A stretch of 64,000 bases of DNA from Candidatus Leucobacter sulfamidivorax (GTDB taxonomy: Bacteria > Actinomycetota > Actinomycetes > Actinomycetales > Microbacteriaceae). Where the stretch lies: NCBI GenBank assembly GCA_016771945.1, contig QZLF01000001.1, forward strand, positions 186,001 through 250,000, written 5' to 3'. Positions 1 to 10,798 of this stretch are shown here, in pieces. The notes beneath the pieces are model-generated. The model saw only the letters and a program-made list of their open reading frames with translations, ran no database searches and was not told the DNA's origin. Numbering within the stretch: the first letter of the stretch is position 1; every line of letters starts with the position of its first letter. A program made the position numbers and the translations under genes.

Positions 1-779
1 CCCACATACGAGTTCCAGTAGAGGGCCATCCCAATCTCACCGTTTGCGAGAAGGGTATTGGCCTCGTCGCTCGAAGAGTAGAAGGTGCGAATGCTCGGCT
101 TCAATTTATCGAGCGCGCCCGAAGCAGCATCGAAGTCCATATTCGACCAGTCGTCTTCCAATTCTGTGCCGAGAGACTCCTGAGCAAATGCAAGGGCCGT
201 CAATGGCTGGAACGATGAGAAGGTCCTGTGGCCCGGGAACGCCTCCACATCGAAGAACTCTTTCGCGTTCGTCGGGCACTTGTCGACGACGTTCATATTG
301 CAGACGATCATCGAAGCACCGACTCTCTCAGGGACTGCGGCTCCGACGAATGAGCCGCCGGCTGCTTCTATAGCCTCTTTCACGTCCTTCGGCGGATCCA
401 CCACGTACCCGAGCGAATAGAGTGTCGCCACCTCGCCGCCGGTCAGGGCGAAGCCCATATCCCACTGCGGATTGCCGGACTCCTGCTGGGCACTAACCCC
501 GGCCGCGATTCCGCCGGGGGCCACGACCCACGTCGTGTCAGCACCGGTATCCTCAGCGTACGCCGGGAACACGATATCCTTCATTGCGGTTTCCGTCAGC
601 CCGCCATAGCCGACGACGATCAGGGAGTCGGAACCTCCTTCGCCGCCTTCGCTGCCCGACCCGCCCGAGCAGCCGGCCAGCAACGAGAGCGTTACCACGC
701 CCACGGCGGCGAGGGCCGCGCGAGGCATGGAGCGCCCGAAGCTTCCGACTCCGGCATCGTTTTTCCTCTGAAATAGCAT
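1..779 (-). CDS. ABC transporter substrate-binding lipoprotein (PotD-like), C-terminus outside window
   Basis: About 259 residues are visible; the gene runs off the left edge. The N-terminus has a basic segment, a hydrophobic stretch and a lipobox (LLAGC) followed by a Gly/Ser-rich linker, so it should be a membrane-anchored extracellular solute receptor. The body resembles the spermidine/putrescine type-1 periplasmic binding family. Two ATGs are possible. The one at 779 is preferred because AGGAG lies 7 nt upstream, whereas the ATG at 785 leaves only 1 nt. It is the last visible gene of the leftward operon that also encodes two permeases and an ATPase. Ligand unknown. Confidence 0.85.
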   Translation of the reverse strand, partial: MLFQRKNDAGVGSFGRSMPRAALAAVGVVTLSLLAGCSGGSGSEGGEGGSDSLIVVGYGGLTETAMKDIVFPAYAEDTGADTTWVVAPGGIAAGVSAQQESGNPQWDMGFALTGGEVATLYSLGYVVDPPKDVKEAIEAAGGSFVGAAVPERVGASMIVCNMNVVDKCPTNAKEFFDVEAFPGHRTFSSFQPLTALAFAQESLGTELEDDWSNMDFDAASGALDKLKPSIRTFYSSSDEANTLLANGEIGMALYWNSYV

Positions 780-855
780 CTTCATACTCCTTTGTATTGT
801 TTCGATATTTCTTGTGGTGGTGAGCACGAGCAGCTGCGCCCAGTGCGCTTTCGGA

Positions 856-1956
856 TCACGCTCGATTGATGGTCTTGATAGTGGACGTGTCCGTCGATTC
901 CCTGGCGGGCAGCAGCAGTGCGCGGTCGAAGTCGATCCCGACTTCAAGGTCGGAATCCAAGACGAATCTCTTCCTCTCGAACCAGGGCACCTCAGCCGCT
1001 ATGGTCAACCCACTGCTATGCAGGCGAAGCGAAATGTGCGCGACAGCCCCCATCGGGACGATGTCTATCACACGCGCAGGCGCCCACCCGTCGCCGACCA
1101 GGAATGCATGGGGCGGAACAGCCATCAGCATGCCTTCGTCGAGGTCGCCGCCCGCGGAGACCAGACCTGACTTGCCCTCCCAGGAAATGCGATACACATC
1201 GCCCTCGCGCTGGGCACCTGACACGTTCAGCACCTGGAATCCGCAGAAGAACCTCGCCACGAACGCATCCTGAGGGGACTCGTAGAGCTCGCTCGGGCTC
1301 CCGACGTGGCAGAGCAGCCCTTCTCGCATGATGCCGACGCCGTCGGAAAGCGCGAAGGCCTCGTCACGGTCGTGGGTGACATAGATCACGGTCGGAGACA
1401 CTTCCTGATGAATGCGGCGAATCTCCGAGCGCATCTGGACACGAATCTCCCGATCCAATGCGGCAAGCGGCTCGTCCATCAGAAGCAGGCCGGGCTCGAA
1501 TGCAAGGGCTCGCGCCAACGCCACACGCTGCTGCTGTCCACCCGAGAGTTCGGTCGGCATGCGGTTGCCCAAGCCTGCGAGCCCCACGAGGTCCAGCATC
1601 TCCTCAACCCTTGAGGAGATGCGGGCCCGTTTCCATTTCCGCCGTTTCAAGCCGTACGCGATGTTTCCGGCCACCGACATGTGCGGGAACAGGGCGTAGT
1701 TCTGAAACACCACACCGATATTGCGGTCTGCTGGGGCGATCCTGCTGACGTCTTGACCGTCGATGAGCACTTGCCCCTCATCGCTGTTGTAGAGGCCGGA
1801 GACCAGGTTCAGGATCGTGCTCTTCCCAGAACCGCTCGGGCCGAGGAGGGAGAAAAACGACCCCGGATTCACCACCAGGTTGAGGTCTTCGAGAACGCGC
1901 GTAGAGCCGAATGCCTTGCCCACCCCTCTGAACTCAACGTTCGCTGCTTCTGTCAA
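856..1956 (-). CDS. ABC transporter ATP-binding protein, PotA/spermidine-putrescine type
   Basis: A 366-residue ATPase energising the adjacent permeases. Visible motifs: Walker A GPSGSGKST (about 39-47), Q-loop Q85, signature LSGGQ (137-141), Walker B LLLMDEP (157-163) and switch histidine in THD (about 195). The roughly 130 C-terminal residues fit the TOBE-like regulatory domain of the PotA/CysA group. Its start overlaps the stop of the upstream permease by 4 nt (ATGA), so it is probably translationally coupled. Family function is well established; the substrate (polyamine or another small organic molecule) cannot be read from sequence. Confidence 0.95.
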   Translation of the reverse strand: MTEAANVEFRGVGKAFGSTRVLEDLNLVVNPGSFFSLLGPSGSGKSTILNLVSGLYNSDEGQVLIDGQDVSRIAPADRNIGVVFQNYALFPHMSVAGNIAYGLKRRKWKRARISSRVEEMLDLVGLAGLGNRMPTELSGGQQQRVALARALAFEPGLLLMDEPLAALDREIRVQMRSEIRRIHQEVSPTVIYVTHDRDEAFALSDGVGIMREGLLCHVGSPSELYESPQDAFVARFFCGFQVLNVSGAQREGDVYRISWEGKSGLVSAGGDLDEGMLMAVPPHAFLVGDGWAPARVIDIVPMGAVAHISLRLHSSGLTIAAEVPWFERKRFVLDSDLEVGIDFDRALLLPARESTDTSTIKTINRA

Positions 1957-2795
1957 CGTGGAGACTCCTTCTTGCTTGTACTGCCCCGTGAGATCCGACG
2001 TTTGCGCAGGCTCTGCAGCCCCATGGCGGCACTCGCCACCACTAGGACGGCAAGCATCAATAGGACGGATACCGGAGCGATCAATTGATCGAGGTTGAAT
2101 CGGAGAGAATCGAAGATCATCCGGCTGACGGTCTTATCGCCCGGGCCGCCCAGGAATGTGATGTACATCGCATCATCCACGACCGTGACGAATGCATAGA
2201 TAAGTGCGACTACGATCGCTGGGATGCTCAGTCTCAGGCTGATGTCTACCGCTGATCGGAGGCGGCCTGCGCCGAGCGTCTGCGCGACGAACTCGAGACG
2301 GCCATCGACTCGTCGTACCGCAGCGCGCACGATGAGGTAGGAGACCGGGATCGCGGCAACGGCTTCGACCGCTACGAGCCCCCAGTACTGTCCGATCAGC
2401 CTCCAGTTCAAGAAGGTGATGTAGAGGCTCACCGCGAACGCTGTACCGGGTATGAGTAGGGGCGCCAACGTGGAGAGTTCGAGCGCTCCCTTGCCCGGAA
2501 CTCGCCACCGCTCGAGGATCAGCACGGCCGGGGCGACGACCAGTATCGCGAGGGCTGCTGCGGGCACAGCGAGTCTGAGGGTGACCAACGCCGCTTCGCC
2601 CCACGGAGCCGAACTGAAGAGCTGGCGGTACAGGTCGAACGAGAACTCTGTCGGCGGGAAGGAGCGGAACACGTCGCTGAAGAACGACAGCCCGAATACC
2701 AGCACCACCGGCAAGAGGCAGAACAGCACCGCCAAGGCAGTGATAACGCCAGCGACGATACGCCATAGCACGGTCCCCGTTGATGTCTTTCTCAT
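1953..2795 (-). CDS. ABC transporter permease, PotC-like
   Basis: A 280-residue integral membrane protein with about six hydrophobic segments. It contains a binding-protein-dependent transport EAA-like region around 'AQTLGAGRLRSAVDISL', the loop that docks on the ATPase. It overlaps the neighbouring permease upstream and the ATPase downstream by 4 nt each. It corresponds to the second (PotC-like) permease in the usual PotB-PotC-PotA order of this family. The C-terminus is basic and cytoplasmic. Confidence 0.92.
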   Translation of the reverse strand: MRKTSTGTVLWRIVAGVITALAVLFCLLPVVLVFGLSFFSDVFRSFPPTEFSFDLYRQLFSSAPWGEAALVTLRLAVPAAALAILVVAPAVLILERWRVPGKGALELSTLAPLLIPGTAFAVSLYITFLNWRLIGQYWGLVAVEAVAAIPVSYLIVRAAVRRVDGRLEFVAQTLGAGRLRSAVDISLRLSIPAIVVALIYAFVTVVDDAMYITFLGGPGDKTVSRMIFDSLRFNLDQLIAPVSVLLMLAVLVVASAAMGLQSLRKRRISRGSTSKKESPR

Positions 2796-3694
2796 CCGAG
2801 CGCCTCCTCGAACCGCTTACGGCCGACCGCGAGTACTGCCGCGAAGATCAGGCCAACGGCGACCAGCAAGATGATGACCGACGTCGCAGCAGCAGAGGCG
2901 GTGTCAAACCTTAGGAAAATGTCATCCTGCACTAGTCGGGAGATGAAGGTGGATCTGGAGCCTCCGAGGATGATCGGGGTGACATAGAAGCCTGCCGTCA
3001 GCACGTACATCAGAATGGCGACGACCAGGATCGTCCCTTTCGCCATCGGGAAGACGACCGTGCCCAGTACCGTCCAGGGACGAGCGCCCAGACTCTTGGC
3101 AGCAGCGATGAGATTCTCTGGGATGGACGTCAGGGCGAGGTAAGTCGGCATGACTGCCAAGGGGAACAGCGTGTAGACCATGCCGATCACGACGGCGAAG
3201 GGTGTATAAAGCATGTCCACTTGCGGCAATCCCAGCATGCCCAGCAGACCGTTGATGGGCCCCTGTCGTCCAAGGATCATCGTCCAGGCGTAGTTCTTCA
3301 CCACGACGCTCATCCACATGGGGACGATGATCGCAGCCCATAGCAGGATCTTCAGCCACTTTCGCTTCGTGATCCGCAGCGTCCACGCAATCAACAGACC
3401 GAGCAGCAGCGTCAATACCGCGCTCACCGCGCTCTGCCAAAGTGTCGTGCCCAATACCCTCGCACGCGTAGGATCAGTGAAGACGCTGACGTAGCTGTTC
3501 CCCCCGGTCTTGAGCGACTCCACGACGAGCACAGCTATCGGCCAGACCACGAACGCCAGCAGCACCACGATCAGTGGCGTGAGTAATAGATACGGCAACC
3601 TGGAGTGCCCCCGCGTGTACCTGAGCGAACCGGGGTGGGGCAGCACGGTGCCATGCTGCCCCACTCCTGGGCTTATCCGAGAACGTCTCGCCAT
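2792..3694 (-). CDS. ABC transporter permease, PotB-like
   Basis: A 300-residue permease with a basic N-terminus, a first hydrophobic helix near residues 35-55 and about six membrane segments. An EAA-like motif ('AAKSLGARPWTVLGTVVFP') is visible. It pairs with the downstream permease. The first codons overlap the 3' end of the epimerase gene by 22 nt. The real start could lie a little further in, because the first 30 residues are not typical of the family. Confidence 0.9.
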   Translation of the reverse strand: MARRSRISPGVGQHGTVLPHPGSLRYTRGHSRLPYLLLTPLIVVLLAFVVWPIAVLVVESLKTGGNSYVSVFTDPTRARVLGTTLWQSAVSAVLTLLLGLLIAWTLRITKRKWLKILLWAAIIVPMWMSVVVKNYAWTMILGRQGPINGLLGMLGLPQVDMLYTPFAVVIGMVYTLFPLAVMPTYLALTSIPENLIAAAKSLGARPWTVLGTVVFPMAKGTILVVAILMYVLTAGFYVTPIILGGSRSTFISRLVQDDIFLRFDTASAAATSVIILLVAVGLIFAAVLAVGRKRFEEALG

Positions 3695-4593
3695 GAGTAC
3701 TGGGGTTCGTAACCGAGGATCTTCCGGGCGCGTGCGATGGAGTATGCACTCCCGTACTCAGGCAGGTCTTCAGGGACCACCACCTTCGGAGCGTACTTCG
3801 CCATCAGCTCGCGAGTCGGAATGTCCATCATCGTGTCTGCAGCGTGGATGTGCATGATCTCGCCACCAATGTTGCCTGTGGAATCGACCGCTTTCTTGAA
3901 TGCCTGATACACGTCCCGGCCATCGACGTAATTCCACAGATTCGCGATACGCTCTTCCGGGTTCGCCTGCACCCTTGGGAAATCTGCCTCGTACAGGAAC
4001 TCATAGTTCTCTACCTCGTATGCGAAGCCCATGCGGAGGCCGACGATCTCCGTATCACCCCAGAAGCGGGTATGGGGCAGCAGCGACTCCGCCGCGAGCT
4101 TCGACAGCCCGTATATGTCGCCGGCCTGATACTGGTGATTCTCAACGATGGGGAACACCGCGGGCGGGTACTCCGCCAGCGACTCGATCGAGAACGGCTG
4201 ACCGCCGGAGTGCGAGGACGAGGCCCAGACCACCCGTTTCACACCCTGCAATTTGGCTGCCCAGAAGACGTTGAACGCCGACATCAGGTTGTCGGAGAAC
4301 ACCTGCCCCCGGCTGACGAACGGGCGGCTGTGGGCGGCCAGGTGGATTACGGTCTCATACCCGGCGACCGCGTCCACCGTCTGCCCCAGGTCGCGAAGAT
4401 CGACCAGATAGCTCTCGACCGGGGGGTCGACCCATCTGTCTTTCGAGATCGCACGAACGTCATAGCCATCTGCGACGAAGCGTTCCACCAGCTTGTTCCC
4501 GACGGTCCCTGGAGCACCGGTCACCAGGATCGAACCCTTCGTGGGCGGGGTCTGTGCGTGAGGGTCGACACCCTTCTGCAAGATTGTTGACAT
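3673..4593 (-). CDS. NAD(P)-dependent epimerase/dehydratase (extended SDR)
   Basis: A 306-residue Rossmann-fold enzyme. The nucleotide-binding GAPGTVG motif lies near residues 26-32 and the catalytic YGLSK (YxxxK) near 160. The overall layout resembles sugar epimerases and uronate-type dehydrogenases of the extended SDR family. It sits between a cupin gene and a transporter operon, all on the same strand, which suggests that it acts on the imported compound or a derivative. Exact substrate unknown. Confidence 0.85.
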   Translation of the reverse strand: MSTILQKGVDPHAQTPPTKGSILVTGAPGTVGNKLVERFVADGYDVRAISKDRWVDPPVESYLVDLRDLGQTVDAVAGYETVIHLAAHSRPFVSRGQVFSDNLMSAFNVFWAAKLQGVKRVVWASSSHSGGQPFSIESLAEYPPAVFPIVENHQYQAGDIYGLSKLAAESLLPHTRFWGDTEIVGLRMGFAYEVENYEFLYEADFPRVQANPEERIANLWNYVDGRDVYQAFKKAVDSTGNIGGEIMHIHAADTMMDIPTRELMAKYAPKVVVPEDLPEYGSAYSIARARKILGYEPQYSWRDVLG

Positions 4594-4649
4594 CTTTTCT
4601 CCTTCGGTGAATATCGATCTGTGATTTCTGTGGCGGGCCTGCCTGGTGG

Positions 4650-5378
4650 TCAGCGGGCCATATACGCAGCGGAGGGGCTCCCTGCCGGGGTGAAGATTCC
4701 GAGCTCGATGAGGTCCTCAGACTTCGATGTGTTCTCGTTGATGTGCAGGTCTCGGGGCAAGATACGGAAAGCTGTCCCGATCTTCGCGGGTACGGACAGG
4801 GTCGGCTGGTGGAAGGTGATCTCGCCCTCGCTCAGGATCACGATCTCGTCGTACTGGTGGAAGTGCTGAGGCGCTGCCCCAGGGGGAACGATCCCTACGA
4901 AGAAGGTCGCGTAGTAGGAGCCGTTCTGCGGGCCGAAGAGAATCTGGAACGAACGGTTACTCGTCGCGACATCGAGGTCCGAGAAATCGGTGTGGTTGAA
5001 TGCCTGATATTCACCGAGGGGGGCGTGCTCGTCGGCGGACCGGCCGATGATGAACTTGAACAGCTGAGCACCCTTATCGCCCGCGACAAGTTGCGCGCTC
5101 GACTCCTCGATGAGGTGCATCGCGCCACCGCGGAGCAGCGCCTCGGTATTCCCATTGACGGTTGCATCCACCGACCCGGATTGCACGAAGATGATCTCGT
5201 CCGCTGCGGATCCCGAAGTCTCGAAGACCGACCCCGGATCAAGGAAGACGGCGTCAAGAGATAGCGGCGATTCGTCGATCTCAGGCAGTTGATGCTGGAC
5301 GAACACTCCCGGGGCAACTGCCTCGGCAGCATCGCGATCCAAATGCACTACGGGGCGAGGGGTGGTCACATTGGCCAT
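4650..5378 (-). CDS. Bicupin-like protein
   Basis: A 242-residue protein with two beta-rich cupin-like halves. The second half carries the clearer metal-site signature (PQHFHQYDEI, then a downstream HIN). The start at 5378 is chosen over the longer 5393 option because a GGA core sits 7 nt upstream of that ATG. Cupins of this kind are often dioxygenases, isomerases or sugar-binding proteins. As first gene of the leftward transporter operon it is likely a catabolic enzyme or sensor for the same substrate. Specific activity is not recognisable. Confidence 0.75.
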   Translation of the reverse strand: MANVTTPRPVVHLDRDAAEAVAPGVFVQHQLPEIDESPLSLDAVFLDPGSVFETSGSAADEIIFVQSGSVDATVNGNTEALLRGGAMHLIEESSAQLVAGDKGAQLFKFIIGRSADEHAPLGEYQAFNHTDFSDLDVATSNRSFQILFGPQNGSYYATFFVGIVPPGAAPQHFHQYDEIVILSEGEITFHQPTLSVPAKIGTAFRILPRDLHINENTSKSEDLIELGIFTPAGSPSAAYMAR

Positions 5379-5423
5379 TGCAATTTCCTTCATCTTCGTT
5401 GATCGGCAGCTTGCGACGCTAGC

Positions 5424-5504
5424 TTGTCAAGAACTTGCCACGCTGTCAAGTGTCGAAATCAGGATCATCGATCGATGCTTGACTGCTAGGCAAAAGTTTG
5501 ACAA
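5424..5504. promoter_or_regulatory. Two copies of TTGT-N7-TTGCC motif in divergent promoter region
   Basis: The 203-nt gap between the cupin gene and the OsmC gene contains TTGT-N7-TTGCC at 5424-5439 and an inverted copy at 5486-5504, read as CTAGGCAA-N7-ACAA. The second copy overlaps a 13-nt palindrome AGTTTGACAAACT (5495-5507). A third copy lies upstream of the HTH-OsmC regulator. The arrangement fits operators of that regulator; binding itself is inference. Confidence 0.5.
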
Positions 5505-5581
5505 ACTGAGCTCGCCAGGCATGGCGTGCTCACGTCTGTGCGAGGGCGAAATCATTACTCCCATCCAGAAAGAAGGACCTC

Positions 5582-6025
5582 ATGGCACTTCAGATCGTCC
5601 GTCGCGCAACCGCAAAATGGAGCGGGAGCGACTCAGCCGGCACAGGCTCGATCAGCCTTGGAAGTGGCGCATTCACAGGCCCGTACTCTTTGAAGTCGAG
5701 GATCGACGACGTCCCCCAGTCGAATCCCGAAGAGCTCATCGGTGCAGCCCTCGCGGGCTGCTTTGCAATGGCCCTCTCCAGTGAGCTCGCAGGCGCCGGC
5801 CACGAACCGACCTCGCTCGAGGTGAATGCCAAAGTGAAGATGGTGGAAGAGCCCGGTCGTTTCTCAATCACGCTGATCCAGCTCGAGGTCAACGGCGTGG
5901 TTCCGGGACTCGACGAAGAGGAGTTCTTTGGGTTTGCGGATGCGACCAAGTCGGCCTGCCCGGTGTCTCGCGCTCTTGCGGGGACATCAATCGAACTGCA
6001 GCGCGGATCATACTCAAACGGTTGA
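5582..6025 (+). CDS. OsmC-like peroxide/thiol-active protein
   Basis: A 147-residue OsmC-family protein with both family cysteines: C60 in LAGCFAM and C126 in SACPVSRAL. OsmC/Ohr proteins reduce organic hydroperoxides or related electrophiles through this Cys pair. AAGAAGGA lies just upstream of the ATG. It is divergent from the cupin-transporter operon and is followed by a regulator whose C-terminal domain is a paralogue, so the two probably respond to the same chemical. Confidence 0.9.
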   Translation: MALQIVRRATAKWSGSDSAGTGSISLGSGAFTGPYSLKSRIDDVPQSNPEELIGAALAGCFAMALSSELAGAGHEPTSLEVNAKVKMVEEPGRFSITLIQLEVNGVVPGLDEEEFFGFADATKSACPVSRALAGTSIELQRGSYSNG

Positions 6026-6079
6026 CCTCTCTTCATCGGGGTCTCGCGATATTCCGACTTCTTCGACGCGGTGGGAAAC

Positions 6080-6098
6080 TTGTACTACGCTTGCCTAG
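6080..6098. promoter_or_regulatory. Third TTGT-N7-TTGCCTAG site upstream of the HTH-OsmC regulator
   Basis: TTGT (6080-6083), seven bases, then TTGCCTAG (6091-6098) matches the inverted copy at 5486-5504 over all 12 defined positions. It lies 63 nt before the regulator start, in the 136-nt gap after the OsmC gene, which would allow autoregulation. Confidence 0.5.
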
Positions 6099-6161
6099 TC
6101 CACGGGAAACCGCCCAAGAAAGCTGCCCTATCAATGTCGACGGAGCGCCGCGGAGGAACGC

Positions 6162-6983
6162 ATGGGAAGTGAGCGAGTGTCAAGCGACTCGATCGAACGC
6201 ACGCTACTCGCACTCAGCCGCCAGCTCAAAGCACTGCGCAGCGAGCGAGGATTCCGGCTCGCTGACCTTGCGCACCTCACCGGGTTCTCGGAAGCCTACC
6301 TCTACCGGATCGAAGAGGGCGAGCGATCTCCGTCTCTGCCTGCCCTCATTCGAGTGGCCGAAGTATACGGGATCCCCGTCACGAAGCTTTTCGAGCACGA
6401 TCAGAAGGAGCAGCGCTCAGCACACCACTCCGGCAGCGCGATCTGGCGCGGCACTGAACGTGACGGCTCGGGAACCATGTTCAGCTCTTCAGTCACGCCT
6501 TCGACTTACAACGTCGCCAGCCGGCTCGGCTACGGGAGCGAGAGTGCCACCAGCCCGGAAGAGCACATCGGAATGGCTATCGCCGGGTGCTTCTCGATGT
6601 CGCTTGCGCAGAAGCTCGAGGTAGCGGGTTTCAAGCCCGAAAGCATCGAGACCACGGCCGATGTCATACTGCGCTTCATCGACGATCGACTCGAGATCAA
6701 CCGCATTCTCATGCACGCCGATGTGGTGGTCGCAGAAATCGATGACACGCGCCTGAACGAGATCGCGCAAGACACTCGAAGAACCTGCGTCGTCGCACGG
6801 GCCATGGCGGCCGTTCCGGTCAGGCTCGAACTCTCGCGCAACCGAGTGCAGCAGCAGCATGAGCCGTCAATAGGCCAGCAGTCGAACCCGGGCGATGATC
6901 AACGTTCTCCGTTGTCCTCATCGGCACACTCTATACCTCGGGACAGCCAGGCTGGATCAGCCATCAGCAGCTCGAGGAAGTAG
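6162..6983 (+). CDS. XRE-type HTH regulator fused to an OsmC domain
   Basis: A 273-residue protein. Residues about 16-75 form an XRE/Cro helix-turn-helix (LADLAHLTGFSEAYLYRIEE). Residues about 92-225 form an OsmC domain aligned with the neighbouring OsmC protein and retaining both cysteines, C143 (IAGCFSM) and C209 (RRTCVVARAM). The last ~45 residues are polar and look disordered. Most likely a DNA-binding sensor that reads a hydroperoxide or electrophile through the Cys pair. The domain fusion is seen; the sensing role is inference. It ends one base before the convergent permease gene. Confidence 0.85.
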   Translation: MGSERVSSDSIERTLLALSRQLKALRSERGFRLADLAHLTGFSEAYLYRIEEGERSPSLPALIRVAEVYGIPVTKLFEHDQKEQRSAHHSGSAIWRGTERDGSGTMFSSSVTPSTYNVASRLGYGSESATSPEEHIGMAIAGCFSMSLAQKLEVAGFKPESIETTADVILRFIDDRLEINRILMHADVVVAEIDDTRLNEIAQDTRRTCVVARAMAAVPVRLELSRNRVQQQHEPSIGQQSNPGDDQRSPLSSSAHSIPRDSQAGSAISSSRK

Positions 6984-6984
6984 C

Positions 6985-8583
6985 CTACCCGTCGAGCCCG
7001 TCATCGAAGACCGGCATCGCCGAGGTGTCGGTGCTCGCGTCGGCGCGCGGCAGCACCTTGCCCCGGAAGAAGTCGGGCGACTTCCTGGCCTGGATGAACA
7101 TGAGCACCACGCCGAGGCCGAGCACGACGATGCCGATGATGCCGACGAGCCCGATGCCGCCGATGTTGCTGCCCGATCCGAACTCGGGGTTCATGCTGTC
7201 GACCGTGGTCTGCACGAAGACCACGAGCAGCACGACGCCGCCGATGAGCGGCAGCACGATCTTCGAGATGATCGCTCCGATGCCCTCCTTGACCGCGCTC
7301 TTGCGGAAGTACCAGGGGCTCGCAAGCGCGGTGATGCCGTAGTAGAAGCACACCATCATGCCGAGGGCGGTGATCGTGTCCCACAGCACGTCCTCGCTGA
7401 GGAAGCGCATGACCGCGTAGAACACCGAGGCCACGATCGAGGACAGCAGCAGCGCCACGTGCGGCGACTTGTACTTCGGGTGCACCTTCTTGAGGGCCGC
7501 GGGCAGCGCCTCGTAGTGGGACATCGCGAGCAGGGTGCGCGCCGGCGAGATCGCCGTCGAGTTGATCGATGCCATCGCGCTCACGAGGATCGCGAGCGAG
7601 AGGAGGATCGCGAAGGGCCCCATGACGGGGTGCGCGAGGGCCGCGAAGACGTTCTCGGCGATCGCCGGGTTCATGAGCCCGGTGCCGGTCTCGCCGAGAC
7701 CCGCGTAGGCGACGGTGGCGGCCGCGGTGCCGACGTAGAGCACCACGAGGATCACGACGAGGATCATCGCCGCCTTGCTCTCGGTCGACAGCCGGCCCTT
7801 CGAGGGCTTCGTCTCCTCGCCCATGGTCAGCACCGTGTCCCAGCCCCAGTACACGAAGATCGAGACCGCGACGCCGGCGGCGAGCGCGCTGAAGCTCGGC
7901 ACCTCGAAGGGGTTGAACCAGGAGAGCTCGGGCATCTGCCCGGCCTCGTTCAGCGGGTTCGCGGCACCCACGAACATCGCGATCACGAACCACACCATGA
8001 CCGCCATCTGGAAGAAGACGGTGACGTACTGGAACACCTTCGTCGAGGTCATGCCGCGGTAGGAGATGAAGGTCGCGAGCGCCATGAAGCCGAGGCAGAC
8101 CAGGATGTTGACGAACCTGTTCTCGGCGATGTCGGCGATGCCCGGGTCGCCGAAGACGATGCTGAGCGATTGGAAGAGGAACTCGACCGCGATTCCCGCG
8201 AGGTTCGAGAGCACGAGCACCGTGGCGGCGATGAGCCCCCAGCCGGCCATCCACCCGATCCAGGGGCCGAAGGCCCGGGTCGCCCAGGTAAAGGAGGTGC
8301 CGGAGTCGGGCATCGCCGAGTTCAGCGCGCGGTAGCCGAGCGCCACGAGAAGCATGGGGATGAAGCCGACGAGGAAGATGGCGGGGGTCTGGTACCCGAC
8401 CTCGCTCGCGGCCGGCCCCACGGACGCGGTCAGCGTGTAGGCGGGCGCGCAGACCGAGATGCCGATGACGAGGGCGCCGAGCACGCCGACCGTGCCCTGC
8501 GGCAGGCCCTTGCGGCTGAGGCCGGTCGCGGTGTCGAGGGTGCGCGTCGCGGGCTCGGGGCCCTTCTGGTCATATCTGGACAC
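6985..8583 (-). CDS. APC-family amino acid/amine permease
   Basis: A 532-residue polytopic membrane protein with about 12-14 hydrophobic helices. The first helix carries a GALVIGISVCAPAYT-like segment typical of the amino acid-polyamine-organocation superfamily. It is divergent from the copper amine oxidase gene, across a 199-nt gap, so it probably imports the amine oxidised by that enzyme (for example tyramine, phenethylamine or putrescine). The substrate is inferred from context only. Confidence 0.9.
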   Translation of the reverse strand: MSRYDQKGPEPATRTLDTATGLSRKGLPQGTVGVLGALVIGISVCAPAYTLTASVGPAASEVGYQTPAIFLVGFIPMLLVALGYRALNSAMPDSGTSFTWATRAFGPWIGWMAGWGLIAATVLVLSNLAGIAVEFLFQSLSIVFGDPGIADIAENRFVNILVCLGFMALATFISYRGMTSTKVFQYVTVFFQMAVMVWFVIAMFVGAANPLNEAGQMPELSWFNPFEVPSFSALAAGVAVSIFVYWGWDTVLTMGEETKPSKGRLSTESKAAMILVVILVVLYVGTAAATVAYAGLGETGTGLMNPAIAENVFAALAHPVMGPFAILLSLAILVSAMASINSTAISPARTLLAMSHYEALPAALKKVHPKYKSPHVALLLSSIVASVFYAVMRFLSEDVLWDTITALGMMVCFYYGITALASPWYFRKSAVKEGIGAIISKIVLPLIGGVVLLVVFVQTTVDSMNPEFGSGSNIGGIGLVGIIGIVVLGLGVVLMFIQARKSPDFFRGKVLPRADASTDTSAMPVFDDGLDG

Positions 8584-8782
8584 GGGCAGTCACCGACCTC
8601 TCTCGGACGCTTCGACGCGTCTCGCCCAAGTATCGGGCATCCCGGCCGGGTTTGCCCAACTCCGCACGGGAGTGGCGGATCCGCCGCGCCGCGCGATCCG
8701 GAATCTCCTGGAGCGCGGTAGGCGCCGGTCGTCCCGTCCCATAGGATCTGATCACCCGGCTCTGTGTTCCAAGGAGGGCGCC

Positions 8783-10798
8783 ATGACCGCACACCCGCTC
8801 GACTCGTTGTCCGCCGAGGAGATCACCGCGACGTCCGCGGCCCTCGCATGTGAGAAGGGGGTCGACGCGGGCTGGCGCTACGCCTCGATCGCGCTGCAGG
8901 AGCCGCCGAAGGCCGCGGTGCAGGCCTGGCGGGCGGGCGATCCGATCCCCCGCCGCTCGATCTCGGTGGTCTGGAACAAGCAGAGCAACGAGGTCTACGA
9001 GGCCGTGGTCGATCTGGACGGCGGCGGTTCCGGCGATGCAGCCGTCGAGTCGTGGACGCACAAGCCCGGCGTCACCCCGAACTTCACGATCGACGAGTAC
9101 CACGACTGCGACGAGGCGATGCGGGCGAACCCCGAGGTGCGCGCGGCGCTCGAGGCGCGCGGCGTCGATCCCGAGCTCGTGCTCTTCGACCTGTGGACCT
9201 ACGGCCGCGAGGTGATGCCCGAGCAGTGGCGGGATCGCCGCCTGGGCTGGGTGGATCTCTGGGCGCGGGCGACCCCCGACGGCAACCCCTATGCGCATCC
9301 GGTCAGCGGGCTCAAGATCATCGTCGACGTGAACACCATGGAGGTGCTGCAGCTCGACCAGGCGCACGACCGCGGCTTCCCCGAGGTCGACGGCAAGTAC
9401 GTTCCCGAGCTGCGCGGGCTCGAGCCCCGCACCGATCTGAAGCCGCTCGACATCGTGCAGCCGGAGGGGGTCTCCTTCGAGCTCGAGGGCTCGCTGCTGC
9501 GCTGGCAGGACTGGGAGTTCCGGCTCGGCTTCAACTTCCGCGAGGGGCCGGTGATCTACCAGGTGCGCTTCAAGGATGGCGACGAGTACCGCGACATCGC
9601 CTACCGCATGTCGCTCGCCGAGATGATCGTGCCGTACCGCGACTCGAGCTTCGACCACTACCGTCGCACGGCCTTCGACATCGGCGAGTGGGGCTTCGGC
9701 TACATGTGCACCTCACTCGAGCTCGGCTGCGACTGCCTCGGCGAGATCACCTACCTCGACGGCGTGCTGCCCGACACGAAGGGCGAGCCCTACGCGATCA
9801 AGAACGTGATCTGCCTGCACGAGGAGGACGACGCGGTGCTGTGGAAGCACGTCGACCCCGACTCGGGCACCGAGGTGCGCCGCATGCGCCGCTTCGTGGT
9901 CTCGGTGCACGCGACCGTCGCGAACTACGAGTACCTCGTCTACTGGCGCTTCTACCCGGACGGCAACATCGAGTGCGAGATCCGCGCGACCGGCATCATG
10001 GTCACCACCCCGATGGAGGACCACACCCCGGGCTTCCCGACGGGCACTGTGATCGACCGGCGCACGTACGCCCCCTACCACCAGCACTTCCTGGTGGCCC
10101 GCCTCGACCTCGACGTCGACGGCGGCGCCAACACGGTCGTCGAGACCGAGTCCTTCGCGGCCCCCATCGACGAGAGCAATCCGCTGGGCCTCGACCTGCA
10201 CACCCGCGCGACCGTCATCGCCTCGGAGAAGGACGCCGGGCGCAGCTACGACTGGCAGACCCAGCGCGGGTGGAAGGTGCAGAATCCGAACCGCCTCAAC
10301 GCCTGGGGCAACCCGACGGCCTACAAGCTGGCGCCCACGGGGCACTTCCCGGCCATGTTCGACGAGTCGTCGCCCATCCTGAAGCGCAACCCGGTGATCG
10401 GCAACACGCTGTGGGTGACGCGGCACCACGACACCGAGATGTGGCCGGCCGGCGACTACCCGACGCAGTCGGCCGACGACCTGGGGAACGGCATGAGCGC
10501 CTGGATCGCCGACGACGAGAGCCTCGTCGACACCGACGTGGTGCTCTGGTACGTCTTCGGCATCCACCACATCACCCGCGCCGAGGACTGGCCCGTGATG
10601 CCGGTCGACAAGGTCGCGTTCACGCTGAAGCCCTTCGGCTTCTTCGACCGCAACCCCTCGCTCGACGCCCCGCGATCGCCCGCGAAGGGCGGCGGATCGT
10701 GCTGCGCGAGCGACGGCCACGGCCACGGCCACGCCGACGGCCACATCGGCGGTGACGACCACGCCGACGGCGCCGGCTACGCCTACGATCAGGGCTGA
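8783..10798 (+). CDS. Primary (copper/TPQ) amine oxidase
   Basis: A 671-residue enzyme that oxidises primary amines to aldehydes with release of ammonia and hydrogen peroxide. Landmarks match the family: TPQ precursor Y382 in NYEY, catalytic base D299 in AFDIG, copper ligands H433 and H435 in YHQHF, and the late HHITRAEDWPVMP block with the third histidine. AAGGAGG lies 5 nt before the ATG at 8783. The last ~35 residues form an unusual CC plus repeated GHGH/DGH tail that could bind metal. The neighbouring permease supports an amine catabolic role. Confidence 0.96.
   Translation: MTAHPLDSLSAEEITATSAALACEKGVDAGWRYASIALQEPPKAAVQAWRAGDPIPRRSISVVWNKQSNEVYEAVVDLDGGGSGDAAVESWTHKPGVTPNFTIDEYHDCDEAMRANPEVRAALEARGVDPELVLFDLWTYGREVMPEQWRDRRLGWVDLWARATPDGNPYAHPVSGLKIIVDVNTMEVLQLDQAHDRGFPEVDGKYVPELRGLEPRTDLKPLDIVQPEGVSFELEGSLLRWQDWEFRLGFNFREGPVIYQVRFKDGDEYRDIAYRMSLAEMIVPYRDSSFDHYRRTAFDIGEWGFGYMCTSLELGCDCLGEITYLDGVLPDTKGEPYAIKNVICLHEEDDAVLWKHVDPDSGTEVRRMRRFVVSVHATVANYEYLVYWRFYPDGNIECEIRATGIMVTTPMEDHTPGFPTGTVIDRRTYAPYHQHFLVARLDLDVDGGANTVVETESFAAPIDESNPLGLDLHTRATVIASEKDAGRSYDWQTQRGWKVQNPNRLNAWGNPTAYKLAPTGHFPAMFDESSPILKRNPVIGNTLWVTRHHDTEMWPAGDYPTQSADDLGNGMSAWIADDESLVDTDVVLWYVFGIHHITRAEDWPVMPVDKVAFTLKPFGFFDRNPSLDAPRSPAKGGGSCCASDGHGHGHADGHIGGDDHADGAGYAYDQG

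Follow-up and report, generated by a model that had tools for sequence, protein, structure and literature searches.

We suggest, with a probability of about 0.5, that the XRE-OsmC fusion gene described here encodes a local one-component repressor of the XRE-cupin kind, in which the cupin sensor is replaced by an OsmC domain and the sensing is based on C143. The gene lies in the window, i.e. the whole stretch of 64,000 nucleotides of Candidatus Leucobacter sulfamidivorax DNA that was analyzed, and positions given without a locus name are those of the window. The architecture is rare, recurrent and not unique to the window, since it is also found in Herbiconiux, a genus of the same family (Microbacteriaceae). 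The gene, its parts and its closest neighbor are as follows.

6162..6983, plus strand: XRE-OsmC fusion gene, 273 aa, the proposed regulator (open reading frame, Pfam and NCBIfam).
6210..6389, plus strand: XRE-type helix-turn-helix (HTH), residues 17–76 (Pfam); its closest relatives are the HTHs of XRE-cupin proteins.
6429..6830, plus strand: OsmC (peroxiredoxin-fold) domain, residues 90–223, with R121, E133, C143 and C209 (NCBIfam and alignment).
6588..6590, plus strand: codon of C143, the peroxidatic position.
6786..6788, plus strand: codon of C209, the resolving position.
5582..6025, plus strand: stand-alone OsmC, a probable peroxidase (Pfam and NCBIfam), coded 5′ of the fusion and in the same direction.

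The fusion of an XRE HTH to an OsmC domain, proposed in the initial annotation of this DNA, is borne out. The reading frame is single and intact, with no stop between the domains or elsewhere in its 273 codons and with GGAGGA four bases 5′ of the ATG, and both domains score above curated cut-offs. In Pfam, HTH_31 matches residues 17–73 (53.1 bits, cut-off 27) and HTH_3 residues 22–76 (44.5 bits, cut-off 23); of the further models of the Cro/C1-type HTH, HTH_26 is also above its cut-off and HTH_19 stands at it (30.2 bits, cut-off 30.2). The OsmC model matches residues 125–222 (48.8 bits, cut-off 27.5), and TIGR03562 of NCBIfam spans residues 90–223 (100.1 bits, cut-off 85.8). Pfam finds no cupin domain in the window or Herbiconiux forms, but OsmC instead. 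C143 and C209 are the only cysteines of the window protein, its HTH part having none, and they align to the peroxidatic and resolving columns of the OsmC family, so that both are retained here, as had been stated earlier. A Ser/Gln-rich tail of 46 residues is present in the window fusion and not in the Herbiconiux form. Of the PDB, 18 sequences match the protein at E ≤ 0.01, and none of them covers both domains: OsmC structures match from residue 69 onward and XRE proteins over the N-terminal part.

Within the genus, the whole-genome search found the fusion in one of 54 genomes, the own one; the only other match (query the fusion, E ≤ 1e-10), in G036, is a stand-alone OsmC. In the family sample 230 of 398 genomes have some match to the fusion query, and among the matches listed an open frame runs across both domains only in the own genome and in G395. 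Among the best 6–7 candidates per genome, to which scoring in the large samples was confined, only the own genome has the fusion in the order (396 genomes) and phylum (396) samples at E ≤ 1e-17 and in the class sample (394) at E ≤ 1e-20; the family, order, class and phylum samples overlap. In Herbiconiux 3 of 16 genomes have it (G395, G1204 and G1203), and the carriers met in the GTDB contig scan are Herbiconiux oxytropis and two Herbiconiux MAGs. A fourth GTDB locus, from a Eubacterium MAG, was rejected as it matches the HTH only, and the ambiguous matches in G288 (L026), G218, G259 and G599 each proved to be a stand-alone OsmC. Other fusions may exist, because these counts refer to the best 6–7 candidates per genome, to the matches listed and, in the second GTDB contig scan, to two short patterns. 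A mobile-element origin was rejected, as phages and viral contigs gave no match and none of the 71 and 38 matching plasmid records covers 80% of the query. The open-licence literature showed no report of the XRE-OsmC architecture, which appears to be new; this agrees with the initial annotation, which did not recognize the sensor type as characterized.

The origin of the N-terminal half is suggested by its kinship. The HTHs compared were the HTH_31 proteins of five genomes (15/16 of the own genome and 23/23 of G395; those of G1203, G040 and G420 only from the loci examined) together with HTHs from other loci examined; matches with fewer than 40 aligned residues were dropped and 53 rows kept. 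Closest to both fused HTHs are three XRE-cupin proteins (L083, L088 and L089), with 50–60% identity, while the window and Herbiconiux fused HTHs are 47% identical, i.e. farther from each other than from these three. The fusions and the three proteins group at 90/97, which is below the star mark, apart from the other XRE proteins of the genomes to which the fusions belong; the nearness of the three is partly selected, because it was a profile built from the two fusions that had picked them out. Cupin_2 is present in all ten HTH relatives scanned, which were picked from the 53 rows and are mostly short open reading frames near the top of the list. The simplest reading would be that the cupin sensor was exchanged for the OsmC domain.

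The strongest evidence that the fusion may act as a local DNA-binding autoregulator is an array of palindromes around the Herbiconiux gene, present in all three genomes.

L095 5774–5805, 5874–5905 and 6718–6749: 32-bp palindromes of the Herbiconiux locus, TCGTCGmCAA-N12-TTGkCGaCGA, putative operators.

One of them ends 23 bp 5′ of the fusion ATG, one lies between the fusion gene and a divergent tautomerase-cupin pair, and one is 36 bp 5′ of an in-frame ATG of an alpha/beta-hydrolase gene (6786), whose mechanical open reading frame starts earlier, at 6699. Each 10-bp arm is nearly palindromic itself, and the centres of the two arms of a site are 22 bp apart. In G395 and G1204 the three palindromes are the best matches of the whole genome (0, 0 and 1 mismatch). 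In G1203 this holds for two of them, which have no mismatch, while the third has 2 mismatches, as has one other locus of that genome. The remaining genome matches have 3 mismatches, save one further locus with 2 in G1204. The fusion-less Herbiconiux genomes G420 and G064 lack any match at 0–1 mismatch. Only such matches were used, because with 3 mismatches allowed even genomes that lack the fusion give more matches for the pattern than for its reversed control (e.g. in G064 6/12 against 1/4). Between the more distant Herbiconiux species the two upstream sites are identical at 30/32 and 29/32 positions (59/64 together) and the rest of the same upstream stretch at 100/146. The paired-palindrome score at arm length 8 was reached by none of 60 shuffles; at arm length 10, where 9/10 pairs were demanded, the real Herbiconiux sequence has no pair. 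Predicted XRE-DNA complexes have spacers of 12–14 bp, according to the available part of PMC12565409. A TetR gene nearby (L095:4318–4914) might encode the binder of these sites instead; no palindrome match with 0–2 mismatches precedes its own unit.

In the window the corresponding signal is fainter. The initial annotation had placed binding sites at 5424–6098, and three TTGT-N7-TTGCC words were indeed located (5423–5442; 5486–5505, minus strand; 6079–6098), which are candidates only.

5421..5449, plus strand: operator candidate 1, 29 bp, identical at 21/29 positions to the inverted candidate 2; weak to moderate.
5479..5507, minus strand: operator candidate 2, 29 bp, the inverse of candidate 1; weak to moderate.
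6079..6098, plus strand: operator candidate 3, a weaker partial copy 5′ of the fusion gene; weak.

Candidates 1 and 2, inverted to each other, lie between the divergent cupin gene and the stand-alone OsmC gene. The three sites exceed chance weakly to moderately, and the outcome changes with the length taken: the best pair was equaled in 54 of 300 shuffles at 20 bp, in 25 at 24 bp and in 2 at 29 bp, and the best triple in 18, 9 and 7 of 100 at 18, 20 and 24 bp, being made up of the three TTGT-N7-TTGCC sites at 20 bp only. The pattern YTTGT-N6-YTTGCCWMG, built from the three sites, has exact genome matches only there, and four further loci differ from it by 1 mismatch; with 2 mismatches allowed it has 23/22 matches against 65/84 for the control. 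Another pattern, CTTGMC-N5-GKCAAR, was rejected as a window motif: it has 20/22 matches where its reversed control has 50/51, and it also occurs without mismatch at four other places. The k-mer enrichment of the window was no better than in shuffles, and no sigma-70-type promoter or terminator was found at 5300–7060. An operator shared by the window and Herbiconiux was also rejected, as the window genome contains nothing within 2 mismatches of the Herbiconiux pattern.

The fusion gene is the last gene, at the right edge, of an acquired island of about 9.8 kb, which comprises window positions 1–6983 and G000:C1 from about 183.2 kb. About 2.8 kb before the left end of the window the GC content drops to 0.59 from 0.77, and as far as the end of the fusion gene it remains at 0.56–0.62; outside the island it is 0.67–0.79, and right of the fusion gene at least 0.67. 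GC3 is 0.69–0.78 in the seven left genes of the window against 0.95–0.98 in the three right ones. Besides the fusion and the stand-alone OsmC the island carries a class-V aminotransferase-type enzyme, a binding protein of the ABC transporter and the following genes.

4650..5393, minus strand: cupin gene, divergent, 247 aa; one Cupin_2 domain in Pfam (168–225), the second cupin half being seen by eye only.
3673..4593, minus strand: NAD-dependent epimerase/dehydratase-type gene (Pfam).
856..3694, minus strand: ABC transporter genes (two permeases and an ATPase) of polyamine/aminoethylphosphonate type; the named models are below their cut-offs.
G000:C1:183382-183939 (L103:13382-13939), minus strand, outside the window: XRE-cupin protein at the left end of the island; a full-length PuuR match, below cut-off.

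A single island thus holds two XRE regulators that differ in their sensor domain, which is a cupin in one and OsmC in the other. The cupin of the window has no match at E ≤ 1e-20 in 198 other family-sample genomes and none in plasmids. Since, with the fusion as query and at E ≤ 1e-10, an OsmC relative is found only in the own genome and in G036 among the 54 of the genus, the island probably brought peroxidase and regulator together; two more distant OsmC-family genes lie elsewhere in the own genome. Right of the island (6985–10798), an amino-acid/amine permease gene convergent with the fusion gene is followed by a copper amine oxidase gene, whose product would make H2O2, a possible source of a signal. 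The Herbiconiux neighbors are a tautomerase, cupins, the alpha/beta hydrolase, an acyl-CoA-dehydrogenase-type flavoprotein and a transporter binding protein. Apart from a cupin of weak similarity (29% over 90 residues, E 1e-4), the two clusters have little in common.

The sensor domain was aligned with its relatives in 89 rows, after 17 duplicates among 104 OsmC matches had been dropped. W95, R121, E133 and C143 are identical in all 89 rows and E134 in 88. The resolving position is Cys in 86 rows, the window fusion among them, and Ser in three, which are exactly the Herbiconiux fusions. Three residues before C143, at position 140 (6579–6581), 80 rows have His; the window fusion has Ile, the stand-alone OsmC of the window Leu and the Herbiconiux fusions Gln. 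The Herbiconiux form, scanned with Pfam only, reaches 42.8 bits for OsmC (cut-off 27.5). Hence, the peroxide-reacting centre is retained, with drift in the residues around it and at the resolving cysteine, and C143 probably still does chemistry or at least shapes the peroxide pocket. Retained cysteines are in themselves no proof of chemistry, because OsmC domains attached to esterases keep both and the one tested had no peroxidase activity, as reported in the available part of PMC5113044. The initial annotation had spoken of a redox-sensing repressor with two cysteines and held that homologues with the HTH and without both cysteines would count against it. The Herbiconiux fusions go half that way, keeping the HTH and C143 with Ser in place of C209; the fusion stands and a local regulator is likely, whereas a conserved two-cysteine disulfide switch is rejected as the general mechanism, because C209 is Ser in 3/3 Herbiconiux fusions.

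The same residues bear on an alternative that we consider unlikely but worth serious weight: the same local repressor, in which OsmC is a plain ligand pocket for a catabolic substrate or intermediate, without redox chemistry, C143 being kept for the fold or the pocket. The XRE-cupin relatives act in catabolic clusters (PMC7901475, available part), both fusions lie in transporter-plus-enzyme clusters, C209 is lost in Herbiconiux and the His at position 140 is replaced in all fusions; the inactive OsmC-esterases (PMC5113044, available part) fit it as well. However, R121, E133 and C143 are invariant, an OsmC peroxidase gene lies next door in the window, and clusters that share only a cupin and little else suit a general signal better than one catabolite.

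In Herbiconiux the fusion is under purifying selection and the HTH is its most strongly constrained part. The two more distant, informative pairs have dN/dS of 0.114 and 0.124 over the fusion, 0.015 and 0.022 over the HTH part and 0.105 and 0.128 over the OsmC part; the third pair (0.033) has too few differences to weigh. It is improbable, given this constraint on the HTH, that the protein is a two-job enzyme, i.e. an active OsmC peroxidase which also binds DNA, e.g. for self-regulation, with catalysis as the main function. The window protein, with both catalytic cysteines and a score above the TIGR03562 cut-off, would allow it, but the Herbiconiux forms have no resolving cysteine. In Corynebacterium glutamicum Ohr, replacement of the resolving cysteine by Ser (C124S) leaves sulfenic acid on the peroxidatic cysteine and abolishes the activity on cumene hydroperoxide, according to the available part of PMC4486171. 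With this precedent, the natural Cys-to-Ser change of Herbiconiux would suit a one-cysteine sensor.

The descent of the fused domains is less clear-cut. One of the 89 rows was a longer copy of the window OsmC and was removed, giving a tree of 88 rows, in which the fused OsmC domains stand on very long branches (2.13 changes per column for the window and 2.42 for Herbiconiux). The initial annotation took the fused domain for a paralogue of the stand-alone OsmC next to it; that neighbor is real and the two stand side by side in the tree, both on long branches, with a support of 33/89 and an identity of 33%, so that local duplication is a possible source of the fused domain and no firmer than that. 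A single origin of the window and Herbiconiux fusions (AU p 0.64 for OsmC and 0.51 for the HTH) would be compatible with the trees, as would two origins, neither being shown nor rejected. That the window fusion arose by chance or is decaying, and has no function in its own right, as its confinement to one of 54 genus genomes, its branch of 2.13, its extra tail, its place in an acquired island and the undecided origin might suggest, is very improbable given the intact frame with its ribosome-binding site and all key residues, and the same architecture under purifying selection in Herbiconiux.

We return to the repressor with C143-based sensing. A local DNA-binding regulator is likely because of the Herbiconiux operator array and because the HTH is nearest to those of XRE-cupin proteins; DNA binding by the fusion protein, repression, the signal and its chemistry we infer as follows. 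Relatives of the OsmC domain are dimeric. In the resting state, the OsmC dimer would hold two HTHs on the palindromic operators beside the gene, and the bound protein would block its own and the neighboring promoters. The signal would be a hydroperoxide or another thiol-reactive small molecule, met during the use of the neighboring cluster. Having entered the pocket of the OsmC domain, it would react there with C143 of the invariant Arg-Glu-Cys centre, and the changed OsmC domain would make the fusion protein let go of the DNA. A disulfide could next be closed by C209 in the window protein, while in the Herbiconiux forms, with Ser at this position, the signal would be held as a sulfenic acid, a mixed disulfide or an adduct on C143. 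In the window, release from the DNA would yield more of the neighboring OsmC and thus removal of the peroxide. Such a local mode of action is known for the XRE-cupin proteins of Pseudomonas, which repress adjacent metabolic genes; their palindromic motifs suggest dimer binding and they are thought to move horizontally together with their targets (PMC7901475, available part).

A broader reading, which we hold tentatively and put a little short of an even chance, is that a peroxidase fold was captured as the input of a transcription factor. The XRE-OsmC proteins would then be one-component repressors that read hydroperoxides or electrophiles via the OsmC Cys-Arg-Glu centre, the Herbiconiux branch being a one-cysteine, sulfenate-holding sensor whose resolving Cys became Ser, and the window branch a sensor beside its enzyme relative. 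If this is true, the large XRE-cupin class can have its sensor half replaced by an enzyme domain, and a transcriptional sensor can be made straight from a peroxiredoxin, so that no separate regulator of the OhrR or OxyR type is needed. The natural two-cysteine (window) and one-cysteine (Herbiconiux) forms would allow separating the signaling role of the resolving cysteine from its catalytic one, and the Herbiconiux palindromes provide a ready binding assay.

Finally, we compare the fusion with known systems. It shares with the OsmC/Ohr peroxiredoxins (TIGR03562) the whole domain with W95, R121, E133 and C143, plus C209 in the window; unlike them, it has an added HTH and, in Herbiconiux, no resolving cysteine. 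OhrR, the MarR-type sensor of organic hydroperoxides, is similar in the proposed signal and in having a neighboring peroxidase as its target; however, its fold is different and it is not known to derive from the enzyme under its control. MsrR of Corynebacterium glutamicum is likewise an XRE-type repressor for which a cysteine-oxidation switch was proposed, but its single cysteine, C62, makes a disulfide between two molecules (PMC7532634, available part), whereas the two cysteines of the window fusion are both in the OsmC domain. The esterases EstO and EstRM also have OsmC, with both cysteines kept, fused at the C-terminus to another function, but this is an esterase in place of the HTH, and the one tested had no peroxidase activity (PMC5113044, available part). 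The XRE-cupin repressors (PauR, PsdR and ErfA of Pseudomonas and PuuR of E. coli) are similar to the fusion in the kind of HTH, in the small C-terminal sensor domain, in the position of the gene beside a transporter and enzyme cluster and, in Herbiconiux, in the palindromes adjoining the gene; their local repression is described in PMC7901475 (available part); the difference is in the sensor, which is a cupin in these repressors and OsmC, in the cupin's place, in the fusion.
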